From: Halorarum salinum
GTDB taxonomy: Archaea > Halobacteriota > Halobacteria > Halobacteriales > Haloferacaceae
Length of the DNA: 64,000 nt
Direction of reading: 5' to 3'
Assembly: GCF_013402875.1 (NCBI RefSeq)
Contig: NZ_CP058579.1
Location: 3,534,001 to 3,598,000 of the forward strand
The position numbers and the translations under genes were made by a program. The notes beneath the pieces are model-generated. The model was not told the origin of the DNA, ran no database searches, and saw only the letters and a program-made list of their open reading frames with translations. Below are positions 1,124 to 9,921 of this stretch, one piece after another. The stretch's first letter is position 1; the number at the start of each line of letters is the position of its first letter.

Positions 1124-2104
1124 TTACAGGCGGGAACGCACCGCTTCGGCCACTTCGTCGGTGCCGGCGTCGCCGCCGAGGTCGGGCGTCCGCGGGCCGT
1201 CCGAGAGGACGGCCTCGACGGCCGCACGCACGTCCGCGCCCTCCCCGTCGTACCCGAGGTGCTCCAGCAGCATCGCGGCCGAGAGGATGGCCGCCGCGGG
1301 GTTGGCGACGCCCTCGCCCGCGATGTCCGGGGCGGTCCCGTGGACCGGCTCGAACAGGCCGCGCTCGGGGCCGACGTTCGCCGACGGGAGCAGGCCGAGC
1401 CCGCCGACCAGCCCCGCCGCGAGGTCCGAGAGCACGTCGCCCGCGAGGTTCGGGCAGACGACGACGTCGAACGCGGCCGGGTCGAGACAGACGCGCGTCG
1501 CGAACGCGTCCATCAGCACCTCCTCCGTCTCGACGCCGCGCTCGTCCGCGACGCCGACGACCGCGTCGCGGAACCGCCCGTCCGTCTCGCGCATCACGTT
1601 CGCCTTGTGGGCGAGGTGGAAGCCGTCCGCGCCGCGGTCGGCGACGAACTCGCAGGCGAACTCGGCGAGCCGTTCGGACGCCGAGGTGGTGACGACGCGG
1701 GTGAGCGTCGAGAGGTCCCCCGAGAGCCTGCTCTCGTGGCCCGCGTAGACGCCCTCGGTGTTCTCCCGCAGGAACACGACGTCCGTCTCGGGCCGGAGCG
1801 CGTCGACGCCGGGGTACGCGCGGGCGGGACGGACGTTCACGAACGAGTCCACCGCCTCCCGCAGCGGGAGAATGACGTCCGCCGCCGTCTCGCCGGCCGC
1901 GCCGAACAGCGTCGCGTCCGCGGCGGCGACCCGATCGTACGTCTCCGGGGGAAGCGCCTCCCCGGTTCGCTCCTTCACCGCGTCGCCCGCCTCGGCCTCG
2001 ACGAACTCGAACTCGCCGACGGCCTCCAGCACGCTCCGGGCCGCCGGGACGACCTCGTTCCCGACGCCGTCGCCCGGGATGACGACGATCTCCTCGCCCG
2101 CCAT
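1124..2104 (-). CDS. leuB: 3-isopropylmalate dehydrogenase
   Basis: Catalyses NAD-dependent oxidation and decarboxylation of 3-isopropylmalate to 2-oxoisocaproate, the last committed leucine step before transamination. The 326 residues show the beta-decarboxylating dehydrogenase signature: PGDGVG near residues 10-15, RENTEGVY at 113-120, the HKANVM lysine at 167, [17 protein letters not shown] at 219-235 and the nucleotide-binding [12 protein letters not shown] at 252-263. It is the last gene of the ilv-leu operon and begins one base after the leuD stop. Isocitrate dehydrogenase belongs to the same family, but the position in the leucine operon settles the role. Confidence 0.96.
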
Positions 2105-2105
2105 C

Positions 2106-2765
2106 TCAGTCGCTCGCCCCCGGGAGGTGCTCGTCGGTCACGTAGGGGAGCGACTCGGCCGTCCCGCGGACGGCGCCCGCGTTCGAGTCCATCAGCGCGG
2201 TCGTGTCCCACTCGCCCTCGACGAGCGCCCGTCGCTGGGCCTCGTCCACGGACGCCTCGATCGTGGTGTCGCCGTAGGTCACCGTCTCGGCGGCCACGTC
2301 GACCTCGATCTCGCCGTCGGGGTGCTCGTCGATCCAGTCTTGCAGGGCGGTGATCTCTTCATGGCTCGCCGTCAGGGCCGGAATACCCAACGCGAGGCAG
2401 TTACCCTGGAAGATGCCCGCGAACGACTCGCCGACGATCGCGTCGATTCCCCAGCGCATCAGCGCCTGAGGGGCGTGCTCCCGGGAGGAGCCGCAGCCGA
2501 AATTTGCGTTCACCGCGAGCACGCTCGCCCCCCGGAAGCGGTCCTCGTTGAACGGATGCTCCTTCTCCTCGTCCTCCTCGGTGAACCGCTGGTCGAAGAA
2601 CGCGAACTGCCCGAGGCCTTCGAAGGTGACGGCCTTGAGGAACCGGGCCGGGATGATCTGGTCGGTGTCGATGTCGTTGCCGCGGACGGGGATTCCCGTG
2701 CCGGAGACGAACTCGACTGTCTCAGCGGAACCTCGGTCCGAGTCTGCACTAGAATCGGAGGTCAT
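2106..2765 (-). CDS. leuD: 3-isopropylmalate dehydratase small subunit
   Basis: Small subunit of the LeuCD isomerase that converts 2-isopropylmalate to 3-isopropylmalate. The 219-residue product has the swivel-domain motif [13 protein letters not shown] and the family sequence [15 protein letters not shown]. The start was chosen at 2765, although an open frame extends upstream, because this ATG overlaps the leuC stop as ATGA (translational coupling) and the next residues form the conserved beta strand after a short acidic Ser/Asp leader of about 15 residues. Confidence 0.95.
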
Positions 2766-4189
2766 GCTTCCACCACCTCGCGCGCCTCCAGGTCGCGCAC
2801 GTCGGATACTTCGCCTTTGATTGCCGCGGCCGCGACCATCTGTGGGTTCATCAGGACGGTCCGTCCGTCCTTCGAGCCCTGCCGTCCCACGAAGTTGCGG
2901 TTCGAGGAGGAGGCGCATGCCTCGTCGCCCTCGAGCTGGTCCTCGTTCATGCCGAGACACATCGAACAGCCCGCGTTGCGCCACTCGAAGCCGGCCTCAC
3001 GGAACGTGTCCGCGAGCCCTTCTTCCTCGGCGATCCGCTGGACGCGCTGGCTCCCCGGGACCACTAGCGCCCGGACGTCGTCGTGGACTTCGCGGCCTCG
3101 GACGATCTCCGCGGCCCGTCGGAGGTCTGGAAGGCGCGCGTTTGTACACGAGCCGAGGAAGGTGACGTCAATCTGGTACCCCTCCATCGTGTCGCCAGGC
3201 TCGACGCCCATGTGTGCCTGCGCCCGTCGAGCGATCTCTCGCTCGTCCTCGGGGAGATCCTCCGGGGCGGGAACCTCCTCGGAGATGTCGACGCCCTGGC
3301 CGGGCGTCGTCCCCCAGGTTACGACCGGTTCGAGCGCGTCGCCGTCAATGGTGACCACGTCGTCGTACGTGGCGTCGGGTTCCGAAGCAACCGACTCCCA
3401 GTACGGTTTCAGCTCCTCGAACGCCTCGGAGTCGTCGGCGAAGGCGTCGGTCCCACGCAGCCATTCGTAGGTTGTTTCATCCGGATTGACATAGCCCGCG
3501 TGAGCACCGCCCTCGATAGACATGTTGCAGATGGACATCCGTCCCTCCATGCCAAGTGCCTCGACGGCCTCGCCACCGTACTCGTATACGTAACCGACGC
3601 CGCCGTCGGTGCCGAGTTCGCGGATGATCCGGAGAATGACGTCCTTCGCCTCGACGCCCGCGCCAAGTTCTCCCGTCACCTCGATCCGCCGGACGTCCTT
3701 CTTCTCCCTGGCGAGACAGCCGGTCGCGAGCACGTCGCGGATCTGTGAGGTCCCGATGCCGATCGCCAGCGCTCCGAAGGCACCGTGCGTGGCTGTGTGG
3801 GAGTCGCCACAGACGATGGTCTTTCCGGGCTGGGTGAGCCCCTGCTCGGGGCCGACGACGTGGACGATGCCCTGATCGCCAGTCGAGGGGTCGGAGAAGT
3901 CGATGCCCGCCTCGCGGACGTTCCGCTCGAGTTCGCTCATCATCTGTTCGGCTTCGTCGTCGTTGTACGGGCGCGACTGGTCGGCGGTAGGAATGATGTG
4001 GTCCACGGTCGCGTGGGTGAGCGCCGGGTACGCCACCTCCACGTCGCGCTCGCGGAGCATTCCGAACGCCTGCGGGCTCGTCACCTCGTGGATGAGGTGG
4101 AGGCCGACGAACAGCTGGTCCTGGCCGGTCGGCAGCTCGGTCACCTTGTGTCGATCCCACACCTTGTCGTACAGCGTCCCCTCGCTCAT
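2762..4189 (-). CDS. leuC: 3-isopropylmalate dehydratase large subunit
   Basis: Aconitase-family catalytic subunit of LeuCD, 475 residues, carrying the [4Fe-4S] cluster. Cluster-ligand motifs are visible: GSCTNARLPDL in the C-terminal third and NAGCSMCLGMNEDQL further on. CGDSHTATHGAFGALAIGIG is the substrate and cluster region in the N-terminal half. It overlaps the upstream small gene by 4 bases (ATGA) and leuD by 4 bases (ATGA), so translation along this operon is probably coupled. Length is typical of the family. Confidence 0.96.
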   Translation of the reverse strand: MSEGTLYDKVWDRHKVTELPTGQDQLFVGLHLIHEVTSPQAFGMLRERDVEVAYPALTHATVDHIIPTADQSRPYNDDEAEQMMSELERNVREAGIDFSDPSTGDQGIVHVVGPEQGLTQPGKTIVCGDSHTATHGAFGALAIGIGTSQIRDVLATGCLAREKKDVRRIEVTGELGAGVEAKDVILRIIRELGTDGGVGYVYEYGGEAVEALGMEGRMSICNMSIEGGAHAGYVNPDETTYEWLRGTDAFADDSEAFEELKPYWESVASEPDATYDDVVTIDGDALEPVVTWGTTPGQGVDISEEVPAPEDLPEDEREIARRAQAHMGVEPGDTMEGYQIDVTFLGSCTNARLPDLRRAAEIVRGREVHDDVRALVVPGSQRVQRIAEEEGLADTFREAGFEWRNAGCSMCLGMNEDQLEGDEACASSSNRNFVGRQGSKDGRTVLMNPQMVAAAAIKGEVSDVRDLEAREVVEA

Positions 4190-4551
4190 ACGTCGGGGTC
4201 CTCGTCTCCCGTCTCGGCGTCGCCCGCTCGTGCGGGGCCGCGCGTCCAGATGCCCTTCGGCTCGGGGTAGGGCGGCTCGTGGGCCACGTCGGCCAGCGTC
4301 GACCCGTCGTCGCCCGTCGTTCCGGCTGTACCCGCTCGGCCGTCGTCGTCCGGCGCGACCGGCCCGCTCGCGTTCCGCCGGGCCCGCCGGGCGCCGCCGT
4401 CTGCCACCGCGGGGCCGCGACGGTAGACGGCCCAGAACGTCTCGGCCGTGTCGGGGTGGACGTGGCTCACGTCGGCCAGCGTCTCGCCGGCCGCCGTCCG
4501 CTCTGCCGACCCGTCCGTGGACGCCGCGTCCCCCGCGCGTTCCTCGTTCAT
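4186..4551 (-). CDS. Small protein of the ilv-leu operon with a duplicated LADVxH motif, function unknown
   Basis: A 121-residue protein between ilvC and leuC, overlapping both by 4 bases as ATGA, so it is translated within the branched-chain operon. It contains two related segments: [23 protein letters not shown] (from about residue 25) and [21 protein letters not shown] (from about residue 86), separated by a disordered Arg/Asp/Gly linker. Each ends in an aromatic residue and RGP. I recall a hypothetical gene at the same operon position in other haloarchaea. No membrane segment or metal motif is visible. The repeated pattern suggests two copies of a short peptide that binds a partner, but that is inference. 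Confidence 0.8.
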
Positions 4552-5612
4552 TCTCGCATCCCCACGCGGCTCGCCTCCTCGGCCTCCTGCTCCTCGCTCT
4601 CCGTCCCGTCGTCCCACGCGAAGAGGCCGCGGAGGTCCTCGCCGACCGCCTCGATGTCGTGGTTCTTCTCGGCGGTCCGGAGCTGGGTGTAGGAGGGTCG
4701 GCCGGCCTGGTTCTCGGCGATCCACTCGCGGGCGAACGTCCCGTCCTGGACGCCCTCGAGGATCTCGTCCATCCGCTCGCGGACCGCGTCGTCGACCACG
4801 TCGTCGCCGCGGGTGAGCCCGCCGTACTCGGCCGTGTCCGAGACCGAGTCCCACATGGCGCCGATGCCGCCCTCGTACATCAGGTCGACGATGAGCTTCA
4901 TCTCGTTCAAGCACTCGAAGTACGCCATCTCGCGGGAGTAGCCGGCGTCGACGAGCGTCTCGTAGCCCGCCTTCACGAGCGCCGAGATGCCGCCGCACAG
5001 CACGGCCTGCTCGCCGAACAGGTCCGTCTCGGTCTCCTCGCGGAACGAGGTCTCGACGACGCCCGCGTCCGTGCAGCCGATGGCGTGTGCGTACGCCAGC
5101 GCCTCTGCCTTCGCGTCGCCGGTCGCGTCCTGGTACACGGCGAGCAGGCCGGGCGTCCCCTCGCCGTTCTCGTAGTTCCGGCGGACGAGGTGGCCCGGCG
5201 ACTTGGGCGCGATCATCGTCACGTCGACGTCCTCGGGCGGCTGGATCTGGTTGTAGTGGATGTTGAACCCGTGGGCGAACTGGAGCGTGTCGCCCGCGTC
5301 CAGCTCCTCGCGGACGTCCTCGAACACGTCCGGCTGGACGGTGTCGGGGACGAGCATCGAGACGACGTCGGCCTCCGCGGCGGCCTCGACGGGCGTCGCC
5401 ACCCGGAGGCCGTCGTCCTCGGCGGCCCCCCACGAGGAGGAGTCCTCGCGGAGGCCGACGATCACGTCCACTCCGCTGTCCGCGAGGTTCTGCGCGTGGG
5501 CGTGGCCCTGGCTGCCGTAGCCGAGCACGGCCACGGTCTTGTCGTCGATGTAGTCGCGGTTCGCGTCGTCGTCGTAGTATACGGGGCTCTCGAAGGTGTC
5601 GGTGTCAGTCAT
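4548..5612 (-). CDS. ilvC: Ketol-acid reductoisomerase (NADP+)
   Basis: Converts 2-acetolactate or 2-aceto-2-hydroxybutyrate to the dihydroxy acids of valine and isoleucine synthesis. The 354 residues begin with a Rossmann fold ([13 protein letters not shown] at 31-43). The knotted C-terminal domain carries the Mg2+ and substrate acidic residues in [19 protein letters not shown] and later SDTAEYG. It is a class I enzyme by length. The start overlaps the end of ilvN by 8 bases and the stop overlaps the next small gene as ATGA. Confidence 0.97.
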
Positions 5613-6435
5613 CGTAGTTGGGTGTGGTCTGGTCCGTCGCGTCGCCGTCGGCGCTCGTGCCGTCGGCCGCGGCGTCGTCCGTTGCCGCCGAGTGGCCCGG
5701 CTCCTCGCCGGGCGTCGTCGGGGAGTCGCCGCGTTCGAGCGCGGTCTGGCCGGTCCGGGCGATCTCGATGATGCCGAACTGCCGGAACGCGTCGACCGCG
5801 TCGTCGATCTTCCGCTCGTCGCCCGTGATCTGGACGGTGATGGTTCGCGGCCCGGCGTCGAGCGTCCGGCCCTCGTACATCTCGGTGATGGCGTGGACCT
5901 TGTCCGGCTCGGAGCCGCGGACCTTCAGCAGCACCAGCTCCGCGCGCACCGCGTCGGACCCGAGTTCGCCGACGGCGATGACGGGCGTGAGCTTCATGAG
6001 CTGCTTTTTCGCCTGGTCGATGCCGGGGTCCGTCTCCTCGACGACCAGCGTGATGCGGGCGTGGCCCTCGACGGTCGTCGGGCCGACCGTGAGGCTCTCG
6101 ATGTTGAACTGGCGCCGGGAGAACAGCCCGGAGACGCGCGAGAGCACGCCCGGTTCGTGTTCGACCAGCGCCGAGATGACGGCGGTCCGTCGGGGCCGTG
6201 CCGCCTCGGCGTCCGGGTCGACTCGGATTCCCTCCGCGTTGCGCCGGGCGGTCGGCTGCGGTCGCTCGTCCGGGCGGGGGCCGGCCATGCCGCGCTCGGG
6301 CACCGCGGTGTCGGCGCCGGTCGGCGTGGCGTGTTCGGCCGCGGGCGCGTCCGCGGGGTGGGCGTCGAACTCGGCGGGCTCCGGGCCGGACTCGTCCGCG
6401 CTCCCGCCGGCGGTCCCGGGGTCGGCGTCGCTCAT
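5605..6435 (-). CDS. ilvN: Acetolactate synthase regulatory (small) subunit
   Basis: Regulatory subunit that activates IlvB and is the usual site of valine feedback inhibition. The ACT domain is seen in [20 protein letters not shown] and [12 protein letters not shown], followed by the second conserved domain up to [15 protein letters not shown]. The protein has 276 residues, roughly 100 more than common bacterial IlvN. The extra length is a disordered acidic N-terminus of about 80 residues and an acidic Thr/Asp/Ala tail of about 45, as often seen in haloarchaea. The ATG at 6435 overlaps the ilvB stop by 4 bases, which decides the start within a longer open frame. Confidence 0.94.
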
Positions 6436-8249
6436 AGCTGGTCCCCCGTGAGCGCGAACTCGCCGTTCGCGCCGCCGCTGGCCACCATCGGGTAGACGTC
6501 CTCGCGCGGGTCGACGTGAACGTCGACGACCGAGGGGCCGTCGTAGGCGAGCGACTCGCGCACGACGCCGGCGACCTCGTCGTACTCGTCGACGCGGAAG
6601 CCGCGGGCGCCGAACGCCTCGGCAAGCTTGTCGAACTCCGGCATCCAGTCGTACTCGGAGGCCATGTGTCGCCCCTCGAAGAAGGCGTCCTGCCACTGGC
6701 GCACCATCCCGATGTACTCGTTGTTGAGCACGACCACCGTGATGTCGAGGTTCTCCCGGACCGCCACGGACAGCTCCTGGATCGTCATCAGGAACGAGCC
6801 GTCGCCGTCGAAGCAGATCACCTCGCGGTCGTCCTCGGCGGCCAGCCGCGCGCCGATGGCGCCCGGCAGGCCGTAGCCCATCGTCCCGAGGCCGTGCGAG
6901 GAGACGAACGTCCGCGGCTCGGTGTAGGTCCAGTACTGGGCGGCCCACATCTGGTGCTGGCCGACGCCGGTCGTCACGATGGCGTCGTCGCCGGTCGCGG
7001 CGTCGTACGCCTCGACGACGAACTGCGGCTTGACCGGCTCGTCCGGGTCGACCGCGTAGTCCATCGGGTACTCCTCGCGCCAGTCGGCGCACTGCTCGCA
7101 CCACTCGCGGGCCGCCGGCGAGCGCTCCATCGCGGCGTCGATCTGGCCCAGGACCGTCCCGGCGTCGCCAACGACCGGGTAGTCGGCCTCGATGTTCTTG
7201 GAGATCTCCGCCGGGTCGATGTCGACGTGGACGACCTCGGCCCCCGGGGCGAACGTCTCGACGCCGCCGGTCAGCCGGTCGTCGAACCGCGTCCCGACCG
7301 CGATCAGGCAGTCGGTGTGGCTGATCGCCATGTTGGCGTAGCCGGTGCCGTGCATGCCCGCCCACGAGAGACACAGCTCGTCGTCCTCGGGGAACGAGCC
7401 GATGCCCGGCATCGTCGTCACGACCGGGACCTCGTGCTCGCGGGCGAACGCGCGCGCCTCGGCCGTCGCGTTCCCCTTGATGACGCCGCCGCCGAACAGG
7501 CAGAGCGGCTTCTCGGCGCGCTCGATGGCGCGGGCGGCCGCCTCCACCGACTCGGCGTCGGCCTCGGGGTCGGGGACCGACCGCTCGGGCGGCGTCGGCG
7601 CCGCCGGCGCCCGGTCGGTCTCGCCGAAGGAGACGTCCTTCGGCAGGTCGACGAGCGTCGGCCCGGGCCGGCCGGTCCCAGCGAGCGCGAACGCCTCGCC
7701 GACGACGTCGCCGACGGTCGTCGAGTCGCTCGCGAAGTAGTTGTGCTTCGTGATGGGCGCGGTGACGCCGGTGGTGTCGGTCTCCTGGAACGCGTCGGAG
7801 CCGACCATGTGGCTCGGCACCTGTCCGGTCAGCGCGAGCATCGCGTCCGAGTCCATCGAGGCGTCGGCGATGCCGGTGACGAGGTTCGTCGCGCCCGGGC
7901 CCGAGGTGGCGAGACAGACGCCGGGCGTGCCGGCGACGACGCCGTAGGCGTCGGCGGCGTGGGCCGCCCCCTGCTCGTGGGCCATGGTCACGTGGTCGAT
8001 GCTCGAGCCGTACAGCGCGTCGTAGACGGGCATGATGGCGCCCCCCTGGACGCCGAAGGCCGTCTGGACGTCGGCCGATTCGAGGGCGGCGACGACGGCC
8101 GCGGCGCCGTTCTCCGGCGTCGCCGCGGCCGCGACCGCTCCGTCGGGCGTTCGGGCTCCGTCGGCCGGCTCCGCCCCGTCGGCGGCGTCCGCCTCGTCCG
8201 CCTCGTCCGGGTCGGCCGGGTCGGCCGTCGGGTTCGCTGATTCGCTCAT
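6432..8249 (-). CDS. ilvB: Acetolactate synthase large (catalytic) subunit
   Basis: Thiamine-diphosphate enzyme that makes 2-acetolactate from pyruvate, the first common step to valine, leucine and isoleucine. The 605 residues begin with an acidic Ala/Asp-rich leader of about 45. The pyrimidine-domain motif with catalytic Glu (TMAHEQGAAHAADAYG), the central FAD-type domain and the ThDP/Mg2+ motif CFDGDGSFLMTIQEL follow. GGAG lies 7 bases before the ATG, a good Shine-Dalgarno site, which fits a transcript with a 5' leader. The first structural gene of the operon, it lies 163 bases downstream of the leader peptide stop. Confidence 0.96.
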   Translation of the reverse strand: MSESANPTADPADPDEADEADAADGAEPADGARTPDGAVAAAATPENGAAAVVAALESADVQTAFGVQGGAIMPVYDALYGSSIDHVTMAHEQGAAHAADAYGVVAGTPGVCLATSGPGATNLVTGIADASMDSDAMLALTGQVPSHMVGSDAFQETDTTGVTAPITKHNYFASDSTTVGDVVGEAFALAGTGRPGPTLVDLPKDVSFGETDRAPAAPTPPERSVPDPEADAESVEAAARAIERAEKPLCLFGGGVIKGNATAEARAFAREHEVPVVTTMPGIGSFPEDDELCLSWAGMHGTGYANMAISHTDCLIAVGTRFDDRLTGGVETFAPGAEVVHVDIDPAEISKNIEADYPVVGDAGTVLGQIDAAMERSPAAREWCEQCADWREEYPMDYAVDPDEPVKPQFVVEAYDAATGDDAIVTTGVGQHQMWAAQYWTYTEPRTFVSSHGLGTMGYGLPGAIGARLAAEDDREVICFDGDGSFLMTIQELSVAVRENLDITVVVLNNEYIGMVRQWQDAFFEGRHMASEYDWMPEFDKLAEAFGARGFRVDEYDEVAGVVRESLAYDGPSVVDVHVDPREDVYPMVASGGANGEFALTGDQL

Positions 8250-8404
8250 GTGCTGTCTCCTGTCGGGTGTCGTGTCATCTGCTGGTCGGGTGTCGGATCG
8301 CGTCCCGCGTCGACGGACGGGTCGGCCGCCGTCGCGGCGTCCGTCGTCGCGTCGCCTGTCGGTCGGCGGTACGGTCGAACTGGGTCGTGAGAACGGTGAG
8401 TGAT

Positions 8405-8422
8405 AGGGGTGGCTAGACCCCT
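8405..8422 (-). promoter_or_regulatory. Hairpin overlapping the ilvB leader peptide stop codon
   Basis: AGGGGT (8405-8410) and ACCCCT (8417-8422) form a perfect 6-bp stem with a 6-base loop. The loop contains the TAG stop of the leader peptide. A ribosome stalled on the Ile/Val codons just before the stop would cover one arm, so folding could depend on charged tRNA. No U-run follows directly, so it is not a classical intrinsic terminator. A role in attenuation is inference. Confidence 0.45.
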
Positions 8423-8487
8423 ACAATGATCGCGAGGGCGGCCGCTACGCCGGGAGCGCGGGCGTGAGCGACGGGCGCCGTCTTCAT
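8413..8487 (-). CDS. Predicted 24-residue leader peptide upstream of ilvB, rich in branched-chain residues
   Basis: ATG at 8487 to TAG at 8413. The last eight residues are ALAIIVGV: five of the final seven codons are Leu, Ile, Ile, Val, Val. The first part is Ala/Pro/Val-rich (MKTAPVAHARAPGVAAA). A TTTTAG box lies about 26 bases before this ATG, so the transcript probably starts at or a few bases before the peptide start and the peptide would be translated from a leaderless mRNA. The position just ahead of acetolactate synthase, the codon content and the hairpin at its stop all resemble bacterial ilv leader peptides. Expression has not been shown here. Confidence 0.6.
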   Translation of the reverse strand: MKTAPVAHARAPGVAAALAIIVGV

Positions 8488-8513
8488 CTCGACCGTTCCT
8501 ATCGCTCCGGGGG

Positions 8514-8519
8514 CTAAAA
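8514..8519 (-). promoter_or_regulatory. Probable TATA box of the ilvB operon
   Basis: TTTTAG read on the minus strand, with 26 bases to the ATG of the leader peptide. This spacing is that of haloarchaeal leaderless promoters and places the start point at or next to 8487. No better TATA-like sequence lies between it and ilvB. Confidence 0.6.
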
Positions 8520-8622
8520 CCTTGTCCCGTTCGGCAATCGTTGCCCGGGCGCTCCGGGCCCCGGCCCGCCGATCGGGGGTTCACCCGCGGCTGACCGCGG
8601 GGGTCCGACGCGGGCGGGGACA

Positions 8623-9921
<1,299 letters not shown>

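Follow-up and report, generated by a model that had tools for sequence, protein, structure and literature searches.

The window analysed in this study, a stretch of 64,000 nucleotides of Halorarum salinum DNA, carries an ilvBNC-leuCDB operon with the gene order ilvB-ilvN-ilvC-leuC-leuD-leuB, and in the interval between a leuA-like gene that ends at 8623 and the ilvB ATG at 8249 there is a short leader ORF. All leader, promoter, hairpin and ilvB elements lie on the minus strand of the window, and they are listed here from the upstream side of the leader towards the end of the operon.

8534..8544, minus strand: palindrome GCAACGATTGC, 5' of the core promoter, a candidate transcription-factor site
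8514..8519, minus strand: TATA-like box TTTTAG, spanning -32 to -27 relative to the leader ATG, the position that a leaderless start would call for
8413..8487, minus strand: leader-peptide ORF MKTAPVAHARAPGVAAALAIIVGV, 24 aa, ATG at 8487-8485, stop codon TAG at 8415-8413, predicted to be leaderless
8419..8430, minus strand: putative core sensing codons ATC ATT GTA GGG (Ile-Ile-Val-Gly), of which GTA and GGG are invariant
8403..8424, minus strand: hairpin GUAGGGGU-CUAGCC-ACCCCUAU whose loop contains the stop codon, supported by folding and by conserved pairing
8395..8412, minus strand: G-free C/U-rich tract directly 3' of the stop codon, a putative termination region
6432..8249, minus strand: ilvB, acetolactate synthase large subunit, first gene of the operon (NCBIfam TIGR00118, E 9.9e-205)
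5605..6435, minus strand: ilvN, acetolactate synthase small subunit, start at MSDADPG, assigned from reading frame, ACT-type sequence and position
4548..5612, minus strand: ilvC, ketol-acid reductoisomerase (NCBIfam NF004017/TIGR00465)
2762..4189, minus strand: leuC, 3-isopropylmalate dehydratase large subunit (NCBIfam TIGR00170)
about 2106-2770, minus strand: leuD-like ORF, taken from the ORF list, between leuC and leuB
1124..2104, minus strand: leuB-type dehydrogenase (NCBIfam TIGR02088, E 4.8e-105, below the curated cut-off)

A first-pass annotation had described the leader as a 24-codon ORF ending in ALAIIVGV, in which Leu, Ile and Val make up five of the last seven codons, and both its coordinates and its sequence are confirmed. 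Its placement of the ORF at the expected leaderless start point agrees with the position of the TTTTAG box, and the ribosome-binding site that it assigned to ilvB, which begins 163 nt after the leader stop, is found as AGGAGA upstream of the ilvB ATG. The stop codon does lie in the loop of a hairpin as claimed, and the ATT-GTA-GGG-GTC end of the ORF leads into this hairpin, but the stem is slightly longer than the 6 bp given there; it consists of seven Watson-Crick pairs plus a G.U pair (UAGGGGU/ACCCCUA), with a folding energy of -12.2 kcal/mol and a z-score of -2.15 relative to shuffled sequences. A mechanically called ORF of 125 aa in another frame (8246-8623, minus strand) runs over the leader and could be misannotated as a gene. 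A search of the window with the Rfam 15 families at their gathering thresholds gave no match.

To follow the leader through the haloarchaea, ilvB loci were drawn from two overlapping sets, one of 60 genomes of relatives and one of 80 named contigs of haloarchaea. The leader precedes ilvB in all 109 of the loci first tested, every one of which had upstream sequence, and among the next 28 loci, mostly from other families, there are 22 standard leaders, two variants and four loci that lack it. A usable region upstream of ilvB was at hand for 16 families, 14 of which have the leader, and removal of duplicates leaves 118 distinct standard leader sequences in addition to the two variants. What the first-pass annotation noted, an ORF start, terminal Ile/Val codons and a hairpin, is kept in relatives from nearly all families sampled; the start position, the reading frame, the terminal codons and the stop of the ORF, together with the hairpin and the G-free tract, are conserved. 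Because it recurs in 118 distinct haloarchaeal sequences, this arrangement is not a product of chance. The four loci without a leader (L139-L141 and L130, in genomes G043, G045, G058 and G011) count against an attenuator; in G043, G045 and G058 the gene before ilvB seems to have a coding sequence that reaches almost to ilvB. Searches with the bare ATYGTAGGGG or hairpin motifs match 240 of 243 and 145 of 145 genomes, respectively, with background matches too frequent for such searches to be of use, and a candidate second copy that a motif search gave in G114 does not resemble a leader. A second ilvB copy with a diverged leader, MSRPLVPDSSAWLSPRRSSVSSGAAVVAIVAIIGVHA, is found in genome G027 (L206, about 1940-2060). 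In this leader GGGGTT/AACCCC brackets the stop and no GTA stands before GGG; in place of GTA there is a longer tail rich in branched-chain residues, AVVAIVAIIGV.

The promoter is also fixed relative to the ORF, with an A/T-rich hexamer that begins 31 or 32 nt 5' of the ATG in 103 of the 118 distinct leaders. Its position across these sequences argues against a transcript start downstream of 8487. Further upstream, 33 of 99 distinct leaders have an exact copy of GCAANNNTTGC between -80 and -30. This palindrome 5' of the TATA box is likely to be a transcription-factor site, so control of the operon may be two-layered.

Several observations suggest that the ORF is read. It lies between a promoter and the first structural gene with the TATA box at a fixed distance, and is by its sequence translatable. 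When the ATG with the best TATA box was picked regardless of frame, it was in frame with GTA in all 99 leaders compared, and 92 of the 99 were also in frame when the ATG next after the strongest A/T heptamer was taken instead, although the distance from ATG to GTA, and with it the ORF length, takes about 20 different values among them. In several Haloferax species the ORF has 33 codons. The stop codon may be TAG (69 leaders), TAA (31) or TGA (18), and the G[CT]N codon for Ala or Val that follows GGG uses all third bases; this variety of stops and third bases is consistent with translation. Openness of the frame was rejected as evidence, since the +2 frame is likewise open in 118 of 118 leaders. 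Nor does Ka/Ks give any support for the peptide body, which is not conserved: it shows 40 synonymous against 131 nonsynonymous codon differences, with no sign of purifying selection and with drift that looks neutral. Drift of this kind would be expected of a leader in which nothing but the end matters. From these features we infer that the leader is translated and that transcription starts at or near its ATG.

The end of the leader is, by comparison, highly constrained. Both GTA and GGG are present in 118 of 118 distinct leaders, the codon before GTA encodes Ile in 115, Val in two and Leu in one, and at least three of the last eight residues are branched-chain amino acids in 116. GTA makes up only 0.5% of the Val codons in ilvB genes, yet it is always used in the leader, and ATT, which accounts for 7.5% of Ile codons in ilvB genes, is found in 82 of the 118. 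Within GTA the T is paired in 73 of 117 leaders and the G in 87 of 117, and both are invariant regardless. Since GTA is kept even where it is unpaired, pairing explains GGG but not GTA, and a fixed rare codon of this kind would suit a sensor of one minor tRNA.

The hairpin overlaps these codons, spanning from GTA to beyond the stop, and in 117 of the 118 leaders pairing includes the first G of the GGG(G) run. Folding becomes weaker when the 20 nt that follow the stop are shuffled (mean z -2.5). Compensated stems occur in L094 and L098 (GGGC/GCCC), in L206, the second ilvB leader of G027, with its GGGGTT/AACCCC stem, and in L138; the compensated stem of a distant family reads GGTGC/GCGCC. In L126 the stem closes within the ORF and the stop follows it. 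The G-free run after the stop has a median length of 21 nt in the 118 leaders against a background mean of 2.65, and TTC occurs within 37 nt after the stop in 100 of them, whereas runs of four or more T in the same 37 nt are found in only 23. Terminators of H. volcanii consist of a T stretch ending in C, of which T5C gave 95% termination, and one hairpin tested there gave 59% (PMC7237163).

Taken together, we think it rather probable that the ilvB leader is a leader-peptide attenuator of the haloarchaeal ilvBNC-leuCDB operon, in which a leaderless peptide probably senses charged Ile- and Val-tRNA and controls a hairpin that probably acts as a transcription terminator. The transcript would begin at the ATG of the leader ORF or a few nucleotides before it, and a ribosome would load at the 5' end and trail RNA polymerase. 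The 5' foot of the hairpin, which has the stop in its loop, would be made of the terminal Ile-Ile-Val codons, among them the very rare GTA. When Ile- or Val-tRNA is uncharged, the ribosome would stall on ATY or GTA and mask the 5' arm, no hairpin would form and polymerase would continue into ilvB. With charged tRNAs, or without translation of the leader, no ribosome would remain there, and the hairpin would form ahead of the G-free C/U-rich tract and end the leader transcript early, either intrinsically or with the help of the archaeal factor aCPSF1/FttA. The sensing of charged tRNA, which the first-pass annotation had likened to the bacterial design, would fit the anatomy of the leader. A scheme with two states, stalled ribosome or hairpin, is the simplest fit to these features. 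Two further observations count against an attenuator. A canonical U-tract is missing from most leaders, and a search for a conserved antiterminator pairing, a feature of classical attenuators, found none; when the 5' arm was covered in folding models, the 3' arm paired elsewhere with a mean probability of 0.21.

The weak U-tract, together with the Shine-Dalgarno-like sequence that ilvB has of its own, would also suit a leader that is truly translated as a sensor and whose output is ilvB translation or mRNA stability rather than early termination. The position of the ribosome would then alter access to ilvB or shield the 5' part of the mRNA. We consider such an output unlikely, as the conserved features all lie where the leader ORF ends, no conserved structure was found toward the ilvB start, and anything from tens to hundreds of nucleotides separates the leader stop from ilvB. 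This distance is usually far above the range of reinitiation, given that termination-reinitiation in H. volcanii fades past 30-40 nt (PMC12548453).

Conservation is highest in an inverted repeat, GTAGGGG/CCCCTAC, and T-ending codons recur before ATY even when they do not encode Ile (GGT 13, CGT 13), which could mean that a regulatory protein binds the hairpin or its palindromic DNA and that the ORF is incidental. A binding site would leave unexplained why the ATG keeps its frame in 99 of 99 leaders over many lengths, why an in-frame stop persists despite changing stop codons and free third bases, and why codon -1 is only ever Ile, Val or Leu. The second ilvB leader of G027, where GTA has given way to a tail rich in branched-chain residues, also speaks against it, and we regard this explanation as improbable. 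The invariant Val and Gly and the nearly invariant Ile close to the stop recall arrest peptides such as TnaC, which senses tryptophan, and the nascent ...IVGA could in principle sense a free metabolite in the exit tunnel. This is very improbable, since only about four residues are conserved while the body drifts, with no extended conserved peptide sequence, and the invariance is at the level of codons, the hairpin being sufficient to explain Gly. That the ORF, conserved and with a promoter of its own, encodes a small functional protein co-transcribed with the operon is hardly credible for a peptide with an unconserved body, lengths of 16-63 aa among the 118 sequences and a simple composition.

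An attenuator at ilvB would not stand alone in these organisms. In a scan for a promoter plus a characteristic tail, pheS was preceded by Phe-rich leaders (..GFGFFFA*) in 19 of 29 relatives and in the Haloferax genomes, and trpS2, which encodes a second tryptophanyl-tRNA synthetase, by leaders with Trp codons (..WRW..) in six of seven relatives and four of four Haloferax genomes. The pheS leader ORFs, at L230 in the H. salinum genome itself and at L207-L235 and L297-L310, end in GFGFFF(A)A or similar and are predicted to be leaderless; GGYGGA and GAAACCG elements are conserved 3' of many of them, and the consensus RNA structure is weak (-4.0 kcal/mol). The trpS2 leaders (L237-L241, L243 and L312-L315) look like Trp attenuators. 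Conserved GGGAGCGGACAGT and GCTCACTC(C)GCTTTCTC elements follow them, with one T5C tract. In Haloferax the pheS leader is often 26 aa with a pI of 5.9 and the trpS2 leader is 23 aa, and uORFs reported in long 5'-UTRs of H. volcanii with mapped transcript starts include one of 26 aa (pI 5.9) at pheS and one of 23 aa at a Trp-tRNA ligase gene (PMC4983044); judged by length and pI, we infer that these are the Phe and Trp leaders found here. The uORF table in Babski et al. 2016, which covers ORFs of 15-31 aa, does not list ilvB, and this counts against our interpretation of ilvB (PMC4983044). Scans of the regions upstream of leuA, trpC and hisG gave no consistent leader of the ilvB kind. The first-pass annotation had expected such control to be unusual in haloarchaea, a view that does not hold, given a near-universal leader before ilvB and analogous Phe and Trp leaders before pheS and trpS2. 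We consider it reasonably likely that haloarchaea use ribosome-mediated attenuation generally, through leaderless leader peptides for Ile/Val at ilvB, Phe at pheS and Trp at trpS2, with ilvB representing a one-hairpin design that fuses control codons, stop and hairpin.

If this interpretation is true, a near-universal haloarchaeal leader in which a rare Val codon never varies shows that archaea sense charged tRNA through coupled transcription and translation. The leader makes this question testable in H. volcanii, and it hints at a regulatory role for leaderless translation itself. A search of the open literature, with subscription journals largely outside its reach, found leader-peptide attenuation described in bacteria only, so a bacterial-style attenuator in haloarchaea appears to be without archaeal precedent there. 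Proteobacterial ilv and pheST/pheM attenuators carry cognate codons in a leader peptide, with the control codons 5' of competing hairpins. The haloarchaeal leaders resemble them in having cognate amino-acid codons ahead of a biosynthesis or tRNA-synthetase operon, and the ilvB leader differs in that its putative control codons lie in the foot of a single hairpin. The H. volcanii uORFs are likewise small ORFs in transcripts with mapped starts, for which the main text of Babski et al. 2016, in its available part, proposes no amino-acid bias, conservation or attenuation (PMC4983044). The nearest systems in design are the actinobacterial ilvB leaders and the leaderless ilvBNC leader of C. glutamicum. 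The former, known from Corynebacterium, Mycobacterium and Streptomyces, also place a short ORF with Ile/Val/Leu codons before ilvB, overlapping a candidate terminator hairpin (PMC1262725). Their terminator has a poly-U run where the tract in the haloarchaeal leader is G-free, C/U-rich and poor in U runs, and the haloarchaeal leader differs further in its archaeal promoter and polymerase and in a GTA-GGG end that is invariant over an order. The C. glutamicum attenuator, MTIIRLVVVTARRLP, shares the leaderless peptide, the branched-chain codons, a GUA valine control codon and the pathway, whereas it forms three alternative hairpins (antiantiterminator, antiterminator and terminator) and the haloarchaeal leader shows one conserved hairpin (PMC11857589).
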